64,000 nucleotides of DNA. Source: Nymphaea colorata (taxonomy: Eukaryota; Streptophyta; Magnoliopsida; Nymphaeales; Nymphaeaceae). Each line of letters opens with the position of its first letter. Within the stretch, counting starts at the first letter, position 1. The stretch covers positions 10,907,952 to 10,971,951 of the forward strand of contig NC_045142.1 in assembly GCF_008831285.2 (NCBI RefSeq), read 5' to 3'. Below are positions 19,141 to 50,045 of the stretch, in pieces. The notes under the pieces are model-generated. The model ran no database searches. It was not told where the DNA came from and saw only the letters and a program-made list of their open reading frames with translations. The translations under genes and the position numbers were made by a program.

Positions 19141-19580
19141 TAGGGTGAACAACGAGTCAAGCTACTCGAACTTGACTTGTTAAAACTTTGCTCGTGAATG
19201 AGATCGAGCCGAGTCATTTGCTTAATGAATCGAGCTCGAGTTCATGAGTCAGCTCGTTCAAATAATCGAGTTAAGTTCAAGCTCAACACATAACTGCCGA
19301 GTCAAGTTTAAGCCTTAATCAAGTCAAGTCGATATATTCAAATGAGATTACGAGTTGTCTAGCTCGAGCTCAACACGTAACGATGAATATCAACTCCATT
19401 TGAACGAGATTGTCGAGCCTTAATCGAGTCAAGCTTGAGCTCAACACGTAACGATGAATATCACTTGTATTCAAACGAATTTGTCGAGTCTTAATCAAGT
19501 TGAGCGTGAGCTCAACACTTAACTGTTGAGTCGAGCTTGGAGCTATTCTTGAGGTTGAGCTGAGTCGAGCTTGAGGTTAC
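19141..19580. mobile_element. hAT-like relic with internal 95-bp repeats
   Basis: The left end, TAGGGTGAACAACGAGTC, resembles the TIR of the hAT element at 42712. Inside are about three tandem units built around GAGCTCAACACGTAACGATG and CCTTAATCGAGTCAAG. No right end with a matching duplication was found, so the relic is truncated. Confidence 0.6.
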
Positions 19581-20382
19581 ATGTTTTTTGGAAAAATTAA
19601 ACAAAAGAAAAGGTCAGGCATCAGCATCCCGATGCCTTGTGAGCATCGTATGGAGGGAGAGGTGGTCGTCCTTCCTCCCCGTGATCGGCGATGCTGGCAG
19701 GGCATTTTCCTATACTCAAAAGGCTTTGCGTCCCCAACGTCGAACTTTTTTCTTTACTTTTTTTCATAAGATGGAGTGTCCGAACAGAAAAGAGAGAGAA
19801 AGAGAGAGAGAGAGAGAGAATCTCTCTGACCAAGATGGATTCCCTTTCATCAAGGTCACCGAATGCATTTCATTGGACGGCTTTTAATCATACACATGGC
19901 CCGATGTGGTGCATGTTATGAGAGGTTAGAGGATTCCTTGGCCAAACTCCGCCAGAGAAATCCAATAATCCTTCTTGCTACTTTTTAATTAAATAGTAAA
20001 AACCCTGGTATGGGCCAATTCGACGGGAGGGGATGAAAGCTGACTTCTCTTTTGTTTTTTTTTTTGCCGGAAAATAATTGGTCTCTTGTACAATTATAAA
20101 GGGTGCATTTGCCTCCACCTGGATATACCAAAAAGATTTTCATATTCCACGATAAGGTGCTTGATGAACTAGTTTTGCCTTTCATATATCGTTCGAGCAC
20201 CTCCTCAACTTACCAGCTTATCAATTTCATCCACTCTAGTTCAATGCCTGTTCTACTTCTTAAATTAATTAGTCGCCCTCAATTTTGTCCCGTACCTAAT
20301 ACACATTCGAACTAAATCCATAATCCCAACCGAACCAGATCAATCGTGCTCTCTAAACTCATTCAGTCACGCACTCTTAAGT
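19581..20382. other. Intergenic, no gene recognised
   Basis: It contains a GA microsatellite (19789-19819) and ordinary spacer. Reading frames here are short and unsupported. Confidence 0.4.
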
Positions 20383-20727
20383 TAGGGCTGCACAATGAGT
20401 CGGGCCAGCTCAAGCTCGACTCGAACTTGATCGTCGAAACTTGACTTGTAGTCAACTCGTTTATAAATGAGTCGAGCTTGAGTTCAAGTATATGTTCAAA
20501 ATGTTTGGGTTGTAAGAACTCGAGTCAGCTTGACTACATATAAATATTGAATTATAATGAGAACATAGTTAAAAATGAGTAGCAACTAAATGACTTCATC
20601 GAGTTAACGAGTTAAAAAAACAAGACGTACTTAACATAAACGAGTTGAGTTCAAACTCGAGTTTTTTAAGTCAAGTAGAGCTTGAGTTGACCCAACTTGA
20701 ACTCTATTCAGCTTGTGTTATGCCCAT
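20383..20727. mobile_element. hAT-like non-autonomous relic
   Basis: The left end is TAGGGCTGCACAATGAGTCG. The right end, read on the other strand, is ATGGGCATAACACAAGCTG. Flanks TCTTAAGT (20375-20382) and GCTCAAGT (20728-20735) agree in 6 of 8 bases. The interior is made of GAGTCGAGCTTGAG-type words. It is old and non-coding. Confidence 0.55.
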
Positions 20728-34009: not shown

Positions 34010-34204
34010 AACGATTTACAATAATCGAGTCAAGCCGAGCATAAACGAGTCGAGTTTTTACAACTTGAACTCAACTCGTTTAATGTTTCGGGTATAAGTT
34101 TAAACTCGAACTCGGCTCGTTTATAAACGAGTCGAGCTTGAGTCGAGTTTTTCTGAGTGAGTTCGAGTCGAGCCCGAGTTGGCTCAACTCGTTGTGCACC
34201 CCTA
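34010..34204. mobile_element. hAT-like relic end
   Basis: The right end, read on the other strand, is TAGGGGTGCACAACGAGT, the same as the 5' TIR of the hAT at 42712. The inner part is filled with AACTCGGCTCG and GAGTCGAGCTTGAG words. A left end with matching 8-bp duplication (CTCCCTGT expected) was not found. Confidence 0.6.
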
Positions 34205-35540
34205 CTCCCTGTCAATAGGTTTTTTTCTCCATTTTCAATAAATAAACTTTATATGAGTTTAATTTTGTTGAGCTGTCTCGAAAAAGAAATTATTTTTTAT
34301 CGTTCCAAAAACATTTAATTTTATTAAAACAGTTCGCTTAAACGACACTCGTGACATCAAGTGCATTAGAAAGGATAAATAACTTAATCGTATATATTTG
34401 CCTTGCCTGTGTGCTCACTCGTTTACCCTTTTTAAATTGCGATGGCTCGAAGAAGTATCGTACTGGCTTTTTCTTTATAAAAATTTGTCCTAAAGTTTTA
34501 TATGTCAAAACTATATTCGTGTTTGCTGGTTATGCAAAAAAAAAAAAAAATAATAGACTAACTTTTGGCAAAAGGTTTGCTAAAATGAAAATTAAGTTTC
34601 TCTTTCAACCAAACCAGGCCTAGAATGCCATTTTGAAAAAGTTACGACTTACGAACAGCACCTATGGGCCCTCGTCCAACTTTAATAAAAGTAGCAACAA
34701 GATATCATAGTGCCCCCACGTTGCATCAGCATGACCCGGTGTGTCGATGTAATAACGACGTCTCTCAAAACAATGGTAAACTCTTTTGGGGCCCTACTAT
34801 TATTGGAACGGGACATGCAAAGCAAGAACAACACTTCCTCTTTCTTTCTGTTTTGTTTAATTTATGACTCGTCTTCTTGTCTTCCTATAGATCTATTTTT
34901 GATGCCTTGGCCATTCTTGTCTCCTCTCCCTATGATACTAGACCTATTTTTGATGCCTTAACGACTCATATGACAATTCTGTTATGCTTTTACTTGTATA
35001 TCATACATACTTCTCCTATTACAACAAAAAAAATTAATGTCACCAAAACTCAAAATCAAGTCGGCTGCCCACTTTTCCCATCCCATCCACCTTCGGGGAT
35101 TTGACTATTGTTAGAAAAGCGTGTCTCTTGCAGTCTCTCTCTCTCTAGATCTCTCAATCCCTCGGTGAAATTTCTTAAATTTGTTAAACTTGCTAAGTTT
35201 TAAACAGCTATATTGTCCAACAAACCATTGTTTTCGTTTTGGACAATTGTAATAGAAACCAAATATACCTTGGATTGAATTTATATTTCAAGTGTTGGAT
35301 TTTGGTGTCGGCTTGGATTTAAAATGACACTTTTAAAGAGGTTATCAAGCTTCGAGAATGAGCGCCAGGGGAAGGGGTGTTTTGGGCCTTGGCTCCATCT
35401 CAATATTTTTTAAAAAAAAATTACATGTAAATTTTTGAAAATTTTATTTGTCTTATATAAAAATTTTAAAAAATGATATCTTGACTCATGTCAAAATTTA
35501 TAAACTTTAATTCACCCTTCTCATGAAAAATTTCTGGCTG
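34205..35540. other. Intergenic, no gene recognised
   Basis: Spacer. 35341-35540 is a repeat-like patch (GGGCCTTGGCTCC, an A/T-rich middle, TTCTGGCTGTGCTACTG) seen in degenerate form at 32130-32290. The start of the LINE lies at or just after its right edge. Confidence 0.4.
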
Positions 35541-42703: not shown

Positions 42704-44691
42704 GCTTCAGGTAGGGGTGCACAACGAGTCGAGCTACTCGAGCTCGACTCGTTGTGCGAGTTCGAGCTGCATCATTAGTTAAACGAGTCGAGCTCGAGTT
42801 CATGAGTTGACTTGTTCAACATATCGAGTCGAGTTCGAGTTCACTCAAGTGGACTCGTTAAAGCTCGACTCGGCTCGAATGTATTAAAATACTGGTTTAA
42901 AAAAAACCAGTTCCGGTAGCATCAGATCTGCAGCCACAGGATAGAGCTCCGGTAGCATCAGATCTGCAGTCTGCTCCTCCCTTCGGCCTTCTCCCATCCA
43001 CCGCAGGTTGGCTTTTTGCTTCTCAGTGCTCCCCTCCACATCTTTCAGCCCTGCAGCGATTTTGGGTGTTCGGTTTTGGGTGTTTAATGTCTATTTGTTT
43101 GATTTATTTTTTATTTTGTCTGCATCTCGTTAGCCCTAAATCTGCTAATTCTCCCTCAACTGAAAATGTGCTCTCTATCTCTTTGAGGTGGATTATGCTG
43201 GAAACAGAGTTTCTCCACTTGACTTATTCTCTCTCGTTTGTGTGCTATTTAAATTCCATATTACTGGCATTTTTTATTTGTTGTTGCTTTCATTGTTGTT
43301 TTCTGAGGTGGGATTGAAGTTGAACACCACATGGTTTTTGTTGTTTTTGTTTTTGTTTTTGCTTCTGTTCTTGTGGAGACCAAGGGATGAGCTTTAGCCT
43401 TTAGTCAAGTTGAGACCTTACACTTGATAAAGCAAGTGCAGCAGTTCGTCACAGCAAGATTAAATCTGTACAAGAAAATGCTTAATGAAGATTTCTTTTA
43501 CTAATGAGGGATTACAAAGTTGGTTCGGAATAGCCTTCAAGATGATCAGGCAAAGAGACAAACGTTGGATGTATACAAGTGTGGGCAGAACGGGGAAGCT
43601 TAAATTTGTCCTTGTCATAATAGGCTTGTCCTGAATATGAATCAAGCTTTAATTTTTTACAGCTCAAGCTTGGCATTACCGAGCATTATTGAAACAAAAT
43701 TTGGATTGTCACTAGCTCTCCCACATCAAGTTCCCGCTTGTACATGCCAGTAGCACTCCCACGTCAAGTTCTCAAATCTCTGCCTGCATGAATTAAAACA
43801 TGACAATCCGATCCTAGTCAACTGTACTTATGTTGTTCTGATGTTCAATTAGGTGATCCCAAGGATAAATGTATTTGTGCATTCTTTGCAGAGATGTATA
43901 TGTTTCTAAACTTATTTCCATGTAAATATATGTTTTTATTTATTTACAGTCAATCTTCTGCTACTTGTGTATTGATCTTCTATTTGATCAGTCATGTCTT
44001 AATGGGATTGATGATACTGAATTATTGGTAGACTGAGTGACTTTAGTGAAAGCTGTTTTGTATGCTTCATGTTTCCTTCACTCACTAACTTCATTCATTT
44101 ATTATTAACTAAAAAATATGGGGCTTTGGTCTAGGTGGTGTTATTTCGGAAGATTAATCATTGTTCTCATGGTTGTGTTGGGTTCCCTTGCATTTTATGA
44201 TATTTATCCCAATGATGAAGTAGTTTTTTTTGGTATTTTGTGTAAGGATGTCTTCTGTTTGTGTAAGCCTATATGAATGTGGATTTGTATGTGATTGGAA
44301 CTACTTTTTGCACATGAGCTGTTATTGCTTGCTTTCCTGCTTGTATTGTCATATGTATGTTACAATGAAGATGGCTTGAAATATCTTGAAAACTGATAGG
44401 GGTTATTATATCAAGCTCCAACAAGAACCTTTATTTTTTTTTTCCTTTTCATTTTTAATCTATTGTTATAAAATGATATTCTGAATTAGTAGTCTGCTCA
44501 TATAGTTCTTTTTATTCCAAATTCCGTATTGTCTAAATGTTGTTTTTTCATTTGGGATTAGTGTTTTTTATATTTAATAATAAGAACTAGTGCTTTTCAT
44601 TTCATATTCCCTTAGATTTTTATATGTTTCTATCAAATTTCATGTTCAGATAGAAGAATAGCTTAAGCAAGGGGGAAAATTACTAGTTTGA

Positions 44692-46860
44692 ATGACAAAT
44701 TTAGGAAAAAATATCATTGATAAGGGCAAACAAGTATGTGATTTGAGACAAAGTTCAGATGATGTCCCAATTGGAGTACATTCCTCTAATGAAACTCCTA
44801 TGGTTTCAATAAATGCTCCTGAACCACGCATAAGGTGCAAAAAAATCAAGGGCAAAGACTTCTACAATATGGAATGATTTTGACGAGGTTTTTATAAATT
44901 GTATCAAAAATGGAAAATGTGAGTACTGCGGTACACTGTTTTTGATAAGTACAGGAAGATCTACATCATCATTGAGAAGGTACAAATGTTTGACACGTTT
45001 TGCTAACAAAAAGCAAAGGATTTTAAGTTTTAAATCTGGGAATACTTCAGATGTCAGGAAGAAGCTTATGGAAATGAGTTCCAACATCGATGCTCAATCA
45101 ATAAGAGAGATAGTTGCAAAACTAGTGGCAACCGGAGAACATGCTTTTTTCATAGTGGATAATTGTTGGTTTAGGTTAAGGTTTGGTTTTCCTAATTGGG
45201 TGTCAGTTTCAAGAATGACAGTTAAGAGAGATGTCATGAAATTATATGAAGATGAAAAAAAGAAATTGCTTCTTGTCTTGAAGGGTGTTGATAAGATTGC
45301 TTTGACTATAGATATATGAACATCAAACCAACAACTTGGATATATGGCATTAGCAACACATTTCATTGATAAAGAGTGAAATATGCAACAATGTATCATC
45401 AACTTTACCAAAGTTGAGCCACCTCATACTGGATTAGTTTTAGCCAATGTAATTGCTAAGCATCTTGCAGAGTGGAAGATTAAAAAGAAAATAATATCTA
45501 TTACAGTTGACAATGCTTCATCAAATGATGTTCTTGTCAAAAAATTACAAGAGAACATGAAAAAAAGCGGCATCAACTTGTATTATGGAGGTAAATTTTT
45601 TCATGTGCGATGTTGTGCACATATTTTGAATCTGATGGTACAAGATGGGTTGAGTGCCATTAAAGATGAAATCATTAGCATTAGAGATGCAGTAAAATAT
45701 ATCAAAGTTTCAGCTTCAAGACTCCATGGTTTTGCAGCTGCTGCTAGAGAGTTGAAATTTCAACGACAAAGAAGTTAGTGTTAGATGTACCAACTCGATG
45801 GAATTCAACATATTTTATGTTGGAAACAACTCTTGCATATAAAGATGCTTTTGCAAGATATAACATGGAAGACCCAGGCTTGGTATGGTTGCTTGGACTT
45901 GAGGATTGGGAAAAAATAGCAGTGATATGTGATTTTCTTCAACTTTTCTATGATGTGTCCACCTTATTTTCTGGATCATCTTATGCAACATCAAACTTGT
46001 ATTTTCTTGAAATTTGGAGAGTTTGAGAAATATTGCAGGAAAAGGTTGAAAATGAAGGTGGATTTATAAAGGCAATGACAGTGAAAATGAAAGAGAAATT
46101 TGATATATATTAGAAATCCTGTAACTTGTTAATGATTATTGCATCCATATTAGATCCACGCGTGAAACACACATTATCAGAATTTGACTTTTCAAGAATT
46201 TACCAGTCAAGAAAAGAAAGGGAAGAACAAATACAAATAATAAAACAATATTTACAAGATGTTTATGAAACTTACATTCAAAGAAATAAAGTGGATTCCA
46301 ATATTTCTACCACATCAACTAACTCCTTTAGTATTCAAGGTCGAGAGAGTCGAGACACACCACATGGTGGAAGAAAGCTACTTTTTAGGTTCTTAGGTAC
46401 AACTGAGAATGTTGCTTTTCAGGTCACCAAATCCAAGATAGACACATATTTGGAGGACAGATTGATTAAGCATGATGATAATGGTGATGAAGATTCTTTC
46501 AATATTTTACAATGGTGGAAGGATAAGGAATCTAAGTATCGAATTCTGTTATAAATGATACGTGATTTGTTGTCAATTCCAATAACTTTTGTTGCTTTAG
46601 AAAAAGCTTTTAGTATAGGAGGTCGAATTGTTAATGATAGTCATAGTTCATTGATGCCAAAAATAGTTGAAGCTTTGGTTTGTTTGGGTAATTGGGTAAA
46701 GAATGATGGTGATCCAATGCATGAAGTGTTAACAAAAGTAAGTAGGTTTTGAAGAAATTGTATTCATTAAATATTTTGTGAATCATTTGTTAATTGACCA
46801 CATGTATTTCTTTCAGGTTGAGGATGAATCAAGTGAATATATATCATTAGAATGCTTCAA
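44692..46860 (+). pseudogene. hAT transposase (RICESLEEPER/Ac-like), broken
   Basis: A BED finger remnant (CEYCGTLFLISTGRSTSSLR) lacks the usual His of HLRRH. Frame 44942-45778 carries VSRMTVKRDVMKLYEDEKKK, KIALTIDI with the first Asp, and ITVDNASSNDVLVKKL with the second Asp, then the CCAHILNLMV motif. TGA replaces Trp at 45317 and 45377. After a frameshift near 45775 come LDVPTRWNSTYFMLE, IIASILDPRVKH, and the dimerisation domain [20 protein letters not shown], with stops at 46024, about 46111 and 46552. A GTAAGT donor at about 46738 and a TTTCAG acceptor at 46817 indicate a 3' intron. The protein cannot be made as one chain, and any mobility would depend on another copy. Confidence 0.9.
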
Positions 46861-47518
46861 GTTGCCTTTGGTAATGCTTGTTTTTTCTCGTTCTTTTGTT
46901 TTCTTCTTTTTCTTGATCTAATGTGATTCTAGTGTTTGTTTTTGTTGCCTTTTGTAGTTTTCAGCTTTGATGTCTAATGTTCATGACTCATGATTGTGTG
47001 AAGAGCTTCTATATGAAGTGAGTATGTGAATTCGAGTGAGTGATACAGTTTCTTAACTTTCCTTCACCTCTTAAGAAATATTCTTTTTGTATCTTTTGCT
47101 TCTTGGTGTCTTTGGTTCCATTATTGTCAGGTTTATGACTATTGTGCACTTAAAAAGTCATTTTAATGTGACCTAGCCTTTTTTCTATGTTATTCAGGAG
47201 CTTGCTGTTATTGTGGCTAGAGAAAGGGATGGTTCATTTTCAAGTTTTGGTTCCTTGAGAAGAGAGAGGGTTCTCAAAACATTTGTTCGCATATTGTTAG
47301 AACGAGTATTCTAACATAACATTATTTATGGAGAGGCAGAATAAGAGGAAATGCTTGTGATTTCCATTTTACTTTGTTGACATTTCTTGCTTTTTTATCA
47401 ATTTAAATTGCTGAATTGTAGTTTGAAGATGATGACATATGTTTAAAGCAGATATGCCCCATAGAGTTGGTGCATCACACCCGCACGGACTGTTTTTTGT
47501 TTCATTCTACTATTTCAG

Positions 47519-48105
47519 TAATGTTGATGGGGTTTGCACCTTCATTAAATCTGTCTATGTGGATAGAAAATACAGTGGTGAAAGGGGAGTTGATCGGCGT
47601 GGAAGGGTGAAATTTGTTTGTTCTTGTTGTTTTTGCATGAATTATACTGCTTTTTGACTTAGGCATATCTGTCTCCCTTTCCCGATTGATTGTTGATCAT
47701 GATACAGTTCATAACATGTCCTTACTATGCAACTGATGTCTCAGAATTCCCGTTTCATGAATTTTGACATGGCATTGAGAATCAGCTTTATTTGCCTTTC
47801 TCCTTTGGTTGGCACCATTTGAATATGCTTCTGTTGGGTTTAGTAGAGAACTTGGTAGCTGCTTGGCGTCATAAAATATCTGTTATCTTGTTTGAGAGGA
47901 GCTTCTTTTTGGTTTTGTAGAAAGCAACATGCTCCACTAGCATAGGTTCTAATGAGGGAAATACAGCTGAATTGAAGAGGGGAAACTCAGGAAGCTTGAT
48001 TAATTTTGCAGAAGATCCTGAACCTTCTTTGGCAGCAATACACAGTGACCCTTTTTCTAGTCAATCTGTTTCACAGGCATCAGAGGCTAATTGTCAAAAT
48101 CTTGT
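47519..48105 (+). pseudogene. ArfGAP (AGD14-like) exon fragments captured in the hAT element
   Basis: Block 1 (47519-47606) follows a CTATTTCAG acceptor and ends at a GTGAAA donor. It reads NVDGVCTFIKSVYVDRKYSG and then ERGVDRRG, close to the ArfGAP-domain end of plant AGD14-type proteins (NVDRVREFIK.VYVDRRY.GER as I recall the family). Block 2 (from 47921) follows a TTTTGTAG acceptor and reads LKRGNSGSLINFAEDPEPSL and AAIHSDPFSSQSVSQASEAN, like the SGSLIDF.ADPEP stretch of the same proteins. The catalytic zinc-finger part is not seen. Both blocks sit in transposase orientation between it and the 3' TIR. This is inferred capture of a host gene. It could be expressed as part of a chimeric transcript. 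Confidence 0.68.
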
Positions 48106-48399
48106 TTCTATTGCAATAAGTTGTTTTCTTTTTGTGTTCCTTGGTAACGAGTTAATCAAGCCTTAATCGAGCTTGCGGTCGAGCTTGAGCTCAACAAGTA
48201 TGGATGACTGTAAATGAGTTTATAGAGCTTAATCGAGTCGAGCTCGAGCTCGCAAGTGACTATTGGGTCAAGTTCGCCAGTATAGTCGAGCTATATTCGA
48301 GCTCGAGCCGAGTCGAGCTCGTGGTCTTACTTAGTCGAGCTGAGTTTGAGCTGACTGAGCTTGGGCTCGACTCGGCTTGTGTTCAGCCCTAGCTTCAGG

Positions 48400-49059: not shown

Positions 49060-50045
49060 GGTATGGTGTATGAAAAATAATAGAACACCAGGACCCGATG
49101 GTTTCACAGTCGAGTTTTCAAGGAATTCTAGAAGATCATTGGCCCTAATATCTTTGAAGTTGTCATAGATTTCTCGAAAACAAGAGAGTTGGTAAGGAAA
49201 GTTAATCACACTCACATCATTCCTAAAAGGAAAGGTGCAATAGATATTGCCAATTTTCACGCTCTCTCTCTATGTAGTGTTATCTATAAAGTTATTACCA
49301 AGGTGATTGTGGAGAGAAAGAAGATGATAGTGCCCCAGATAGTTGGTGAATATCATGGAGCCTTTGTTGCAAATCGTGTTATACAAGATCAGGTTTTACT
49401 AGTTCATGAGCTAATCAATAGCTTGGAAAATTTGCTTTCCCAATTGGTGCTTTTAAAACTTGATTTAACAAAGGCATATGATAAAGTCAGGTGGCCTTTT
49501 TGAGAAAGAATCTTTTGCATCTTGGGTTTAATGAAGAATGGGTGGCAAGAATTATGAAGTGTCTCCACTCCCTCTTTTGCCGTGGTGATAAATGGAAGAG
49601 AAGGTTATTACTTCCAAAGTGCCTGGGGATTGCAACAAAGGGATGCCATGTCCCATTTTTTTATTCAATCTTGTCATTAAAGTTTTCGCTAGTAAATTGA
49701 AAGAGGAGAAAAAATAAAAATATATTAAAATTCCTAAATGTATCAGCAACAATCTTTTCAACCAAGTTTATTTTTTGTTCATGACATGATCATTTTTTTG
49801 TAGAGCGGAGATTAACTATGTGCTTAATACCAAGGAAGCTCTTCTTGAGTTTGGCACCATAGCTGGATTGAGGGTAAATCCCCTGAAATCAGTTTATATT
49901 CTCTTTCATGTGGAACATGATTTGTGTAGAGATATTGGCAGAGCTTTAGTTTTCACAAGAGCAACTCTTCCTCTCACTTTCCTTGGATTGCGGCTGTTTA
50001 CTGGCAAGCAAAACAACTATCATTGCAGTGAGATTATTTGAAAGT
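49060..50045 (+). pseudogene. LINE ORF2 reverse transcriptase (broken)
   Basis: It begins NNRTPGPDGFTVEF, the conserved P-GPDG entry motif. After a frameshift come HTHIIPKRKGAIDIANFHAL and SLCSVIYKVITKVI, then GAFVANRVIQDQVLLVHELI and LLKLDLTKAYDKVRW, the first catalytic Asp region. A frameshift leads to LHLGFNEEWVARIMKCLHS. The [YF]ADD box should be near 49770-49800 but is shifted out (FLFMT, stop, SFFCRAE). NPLKSVYILFHV and LPLTFLGLRL follow. No active polymerase is possible. Confidence 0.88.

Follow-up and report, generated by a model that had tools for sequence, protein, structure and literature searches.

The hAT element and its inserted segment

The 64,000-nucleotide stretch of Nymphaea colorata DNA described here (the window; C5:10907952-10971951) contains a degenerate transposon of the hAT superfamily which carries, close to its 3' end, a fragment of a gene encoding an ArfGAP protein. 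All comparisons were made inside the same 408-Mb genome. The principal features are the following (window coordinates, with the strand where one is assigned):

42704..42711, target site duplication (TSD), left copy, GCTTCAGG
42712..48391, + strand, hAT element of 5,680 bp, starting TAGGGGTGCACAACGAG; its end segments (TAGGGGTG... / ...CAGCCCTA) are common to sibling copies
44692..46752, + strand, decayed hAT transposase core, with 5 in-frame stops and 2 frameshifting indels relative to an open sibling frame of 698 amino acids (aa)
46753..47491, + strand, 3' region common with siblings, running up to the left capture junction
47489..47491, left junction, where sibling-type sequence and the donor gene overlap by 3 bp (ACT)
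47489..48084, + strand, captured ArfGAP gene fragment, from C6:3088728-3090114, with two internal gaps and introns included
47520..47606, + strand, captured exon A, which holds 29 codons from the end of the ArfGap domain, with both splice sites kept
47633..47645, gap junction 1, where ~566 bp of donor sequence including a 453-bp exon are absent; a short TAT is common, within a larger similar stretch
47709..47712, gap junction 2, where ~212 bp of donor intron are absent
47921..48084, + strand, captured exon C', truncated by the right junction; the frame continues into hAT sequence, with 81 codons open in all
48084..48391, + strand, return to the hAT 3' end, 83% identical to the sibling in C5:17822300-17824600
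48392..48399, TSD, right copy, GCTTCAGG

The element shows the features that define the hAT superfamily. An exact 8-bp target duplication, already recognised in the initial annotation, lies directly outside ends of the form TAGGG...CCCTA. There are short, imperfect terminal inverted repeats (TIRs; TAGGG(G/C)TG at both ends), and the transposase includes a C-terminal dimerisation domain. Pfam identifies hAT-like_RNase-H (PF14372, 2.3e-9) and Dimer_Tnp_hAT (PF05699, 6e-13) in separate open stretches within the element. When the transposase frame is aligned with the open sibling frame, the five stops are spread over 683 aligned codons and two of the four indels shift the frame. The element had initially been described as 'autonomous-size'. 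This holds for its length but not for its autonomy, and it is autonomous in size only.

The initial annotation also placed two exon-like blocks with splice sites between the transposase and the 3' end, at 47519-48105, and attributed them to one ArfGAP family gene in transposase orientation and order. Both the blocks and their attribution were borne out. The location was right but the limits have to be moved: the captured fragment really extends from ~47489 to ~48084, beginning 30 bp earlier on the left and ending ~20 bp sooner on the right.

Donor gene, sibling elements and junctions

A genome search with window positions 47519-48105 returns six matches: three colinear pieces lie on contig C6, two weaker ones on C1, and the sixth is the window itself. 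In a comparison with 20 kb around the C6 place, window 47489-47645 corresponds to C6:3088728-3088884 (157 bp, 97.5%, E 8e-72), 47633-47709 to C6:3089451-3089527 (91%) and 47712-48084 to C6:3089741-3090114 (374 bp, 93.6%, E 2e-161), agreement far beyond chance. The C1 paralogue is just 70-80% identical to the block, so that the C6 gene, or one closely related to it, is the donor.

The 133 aa encoded by the first five exons of the C6 gene match the Pfam ArfGap domain (PF01412) with an E value of 7.1e-30. This N-terminus was spliced by eye from translated frames, which were traced through exon C and further exon-like frames. Its two best matches in the Protein Data Bank (PDB) are chains named nucleoporin-like protein RIP. 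The donor is putatively an ArfGAP of the AGFG/AGD14-like kind. Taken alone, the two short reading frames of the captured block give no Pfam match up to E 10 (both are short) and the first gives no PDB match, so that the ArfGAP identification rests on the donor gene.

Exons A and C' come from this one gene, in donor order and with matching intron borders. Exon A is preceded by TTTCAG|T and followed by |GTGAAA. The acceptor of exon C' is retained (TTTTGTAG in the element and TTTTACAG in the donor). The donor exon that is missing from the copy (453 bp, C6:3088979-3089431) lies between TGCAG and GTCAGT. The presence of introns in the copy indicates that genomic DNA was copied. A gene fragment between transposon ends, with an identifiable donor elsewhere, is one mark of transduplication, and it is found here.

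At the DNA level the transposase region has at least 43 matches, the window among them (40 of 146 candidates were scored), and family counts are thus lower bounds. The siblings compared comprise 29 loci: L012-L038 (27 loci, 11 with 1.5 kb of flank and 16 at 8-9 kb), L039 and L044. The captured donor stretch matches none of the 29 at E 1e-3, with or without a low-complexity filter. The window, included in this comparison as a positive control, matched with all three blocks. In addition, the whole 20-kb donor region has no match in the 27 siblings L012-L038 at E 1e-5.

The sibling with the closest 3' end, L039 (C5:17822300-17824600, minus strand), shows what the captured piece has displaced. It matches window 46681-47299 and then 47301-47491 at 94%. 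Beyond 47491 it continues with ~394 bp of other sequence before matching window 48084-48390 again at 83%. Parts of this ~394-bp stretch recur in L017 and L029 at ~90%, which marks it as older family sequence. The arrangement in L039 therefore indicates that the ArfGAP piece replaced a resident stretch. L039 also holds ~250 bp at window 47299/47301 that are absent from the window element, a further internal change beside the capture.

The direction of transfer is from gene to transposon, with genomic DNA as template. Resident DNA was replaced, the junctions are sharp and a donor exon is absent from the copy. The opposite direction, from transposon to gene, was rejected: the donor has its ArfGap exons in order, there is a similar gene on C1 and the siblings lack the block.

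The resident sequence at the left junction (47443-47491) and L039 (86%) also match C2:30044032-30044206 (L043:3501-3675), a probable intron of an inositol-phosphate-synthase-like gene. We make no claim that this is an older capture from that gene. The match adjoins, and lies outside, the stretch that matches the enzyme, and is apparently intronic; it could reflect an earlier capture, or else the C2 intron could hold the remnant of a hAT element.

Explanations for the captured block

The explanation that we favour, with a probability of about 0.9, is that in a degenerate hAT element ~394 bp near the 3' end were replaced by ~592 bp copied from an ArfGAP gene on another contig, probably by template-switching repair, and that the fragment is probably a passenger. 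A double-strand break or an excision gap would arise inside the element, and repair synthesis would switch template to the ArfGAP gene, slip once or twice within that gene and then return to hAT sequence. Repair of this type is probably responsible and we infer it from the structure of the copy. Most likely, the captured fragment has no coding role.

Several points weigh against this explanation or limit it. The left junction has its 3-bp overlap, the right junction one of ~1 base, and TAT is shared at the first internal gap. Such overlaps would fit template switching, yet they do not discriminate between routes. Random junctions between both parents show overlaps of at least 3 bp in 6.4% of trials and of at least 1 bp in 46%. 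The overlaps are thus not significant and were rejected as proof of template switching. The second gap (212 bp) could represent an insertion in the donor intron and not a loss from the copy. The ArfGAP block is single-copy in the genome, and nothing shows that the piece moved with the element. Its breakpoints are internal, lying ~900 bp and 307 bp before the 3' end, and fit a break inside the element as well as an excision gap. Of the 29 sibling loci, the 11 that stop 1.5 kb beyond the transposase (L012-L022) may miss a more distant block, though the genome search showed no other copy; a further two loci are incomplete or derived. Finally, the comparison covers one genome only.

The strongest competitor, at a little under even odds, is that an ordinary double-strand break in a dead element, not a hAT excision, was repaired with ArfGAP DNA as a filler patch. 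The broken transposase, the single-copy block and the internal breakpoints all agree with this. A survey of metazoans found that single-copy Pack-TIRs fit breaks within the element better (PMC8277862). However, many copies of the family have variable flanks beside the transposase, and one captured stretch is present in at least three copies, so that capture also occurred in elements that later moved.

Use of the captured exons is very unlikely. Here exon A would be spliced to exon C' in frame to give a chimeric transcript. The GT after A and the AG before C' remain, and the border after A and that before C' are both codon boundaries. Joining A to C' would therefore keep the frame without the middle exon, and 81 codons are open from the start of exon C'. 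Nevertheless, the transposase frame upstream is broken, and of the nine codon changes between copy and donor eight alter the residue and one is silent. Exon differences amount to 9 of 249 positions, compared with 22 of 339 aligned positions outside the exons, a pattern that would look like that of unconstrained DNA, although the numbers are small.

A tandem insertion followed by re-mobilisation, in which two hAT elements flanking the ArfGAP piece moved together, is very unlikely. The model was put forward for Pack-TYPE elements in several superfamilies (PMC8903248). In the present case both sides of the block match one single sibling (L039), and loss of an internal exon is not predicted by the model. 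Moreover, nothing in the 20 kb around the donor matches the hAT ends at E 1e-5, an argument against flanking elements as the agents of capture.

The possibility that the hAT transposase gene ordinarily includes the blocks as exons agrees with their position downstream of the transposase in the same orientation, but its probability is practically nil and we rejected it, given the match to a host ArfGAP gene (91-97% identity), the arrangement in L039, the 29 sibling loci without the block and, among them, two siblings that have a complete 698-aa frame and no such blocks.

The locus provides a clean and traceable capture: one genome holds the element, its donor and a sibling in which the block is missing, the junctions are resolved to the base, and the copy lacks an internal donor exon. 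This supports a copy made from genomic DNA, probably by template switching.

Sequence uptake in the family and in other genomes

More interesting than the single capture is the tendency of the whole family to take up sequence. An all-against-all comparison of 30 sequences shows that the transposase core and the ends are common, and that the intervening flanks are often unique in the set or common to few. Two of the 27 siblings (L021 and L022) have an open 698-aa transposase frame, with 655 of 698 residues the same, and PF05699 and PF14372 are found together on one open sibling frame. The family may therefore still have capable members.

Donors were sought for two of the many sibling-specific stretches (in L024 and L026) and one was found. 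L024, on C7, is an element of 7,981 bp with the TSD CGCACAGA. A 959-bp stretch of it (L024:6239-7197) corresponds to C4:25171259-25172217 at 98% and occurs also in copies at C10:2741628 (96%) and C9:7960424 (97%). The C4 locus has frames for a HEAT-repeat protein, with a weak Pfam match to HEAT_2 (6e-4, below the HEAT_2 cut-off) and one PDB match (5.3e-7), a chain of 2,898 residues that bears the label Ribosomal protein L19. It is probably a GCN1/ILITYHIA-like gene. The C10 copy ends with CAGCCCAA/CAGCCCAG (one mismatch), has a TSD that differs from that of L024 and retains a transposase region. The ends of the C9 copy could not be paired, and own target duplications are established for two of the three GCN1-like copies. 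The transposase frame of L024 is itself broken (the longest frame is 141 aa), so that the transposase which mobilised the capture would have come from elsewhere, or from a time when the frame was still intact. The variable flank of L026 has 63 matches, which do not point clearly to one donor gene; the places themselves were not examined.

The window element has a further stretch of foreign sequence:

42927..43693, + strand, second foreign stretch, ~91% over at least 683 bp to 10 other genome places of another repeat family

This stretch matches nothing in the other 29 hAT loci of the comparison. It lies between the 5' end and the transposase, and two of the three repeat copies read begin near CAGTAGCSGAGCCAGCGTGGGGC, a start which resembles a Tip100-type hAT end.

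The family thus captures more than once: the ArfGAP block is in the window, as a single copy, and the GCN1-like stretch is in the L024 lineage, in three copies, where transposition probably multiplied it. We suggest tentatively that it is a gene-shuffling lineage, in which elements that keep an open transposase frame exist side by side with others, their 5' and 3' flanks repeatedly rebuilt from host genes and other repeats, and in which some captures (for example, the GCN1-like stretch) travel with elements that still carry the transposase region.

Gene capture by hAT elements is already known in grapevine and maize, and the window provides a new and well-resolved example. In the grapevine family Hatvine-6, copies share the transposase and the ends, and the remainder is often unique or common to few copies and may be genic (introns and exons) or non-genic (PMC2528002). 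The same combination of a conserved transposase and ends with a variable remainder is seen in the hAT family of the window. Hatvine-6 belongs to another genome and is listed with a 9-bp TSD and 13-bp TIRs, compared with an 8-bp TSD here (PMC2528002). The maize element Ds2-22 contains exons 5 and 6, together with the intron, of an ILR1-like3 gene that lies on another chromosome (PMC3260210). As in the window, this is a hAT element with two exons and intron sequence of a known donor elsewhere, copied from genomic DNA. Unlike Ds2-22 and other gene-carrying Ds elements, the window element keeps a decayed transposase core and lacks an internal donor exon.

The pattern had been called Pack-type capture and rarely documented for elements of this size. 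Gene capture is correct, but the ~2 kb transposase remnant does not allow a strict Pack-TYPE assignment, and 'Pack-like' is the fairer label. Pack-TYPE elements are defined as lacking a functional transposase. The catalogue takes only elements without a transposase match; it includes Pack-hATs and files transposase-matching elements as 'autonomous TE', that is, as autonomous transposable elements (PMC8903248). The window element resembles Pack-hATs in having gene fragments between hAT ends with a TSD; with its transposase match, it would fall outside that catalogue. The rarity was partly right: the Ds2-22 paper itself calls hAT gene capture rare (PMC3260210), but Hatvine-6, Ds2-22 and the Pack-hATs were already on record. 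We found no earlier report of the ArfGAP/hAT case in the titles and abstract starts of the open-licence papers listed, where the one paper naming ArfGAP dealt with senescent cells; this is weak evidence of absence.

In metazoans, Pack-TIRs are attributed to microhomology-guided gap filling and are mostly single-copy captures, 208 of 370 being in hAT elements (PMC8277862). Short breakpoint microhomology and a single-copy capture are common to these and the window element; the difference is that they are from animals. Captures do occur in elements that keep transposase sequence, a class which the Pack-TYPE pipeline by definition sets aside (PMC8903248), and such captures may therefore be undercounted.

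Elsewhere in the window, 19143-19577, 20376-20423 and 34025-34205 give more matches to hAT end sequence and are possibly small deleted derivatives. To the right of the element, at 49132-49500, there is a reverse-transcriptase remnant (RVT_1, 3.9e-9).
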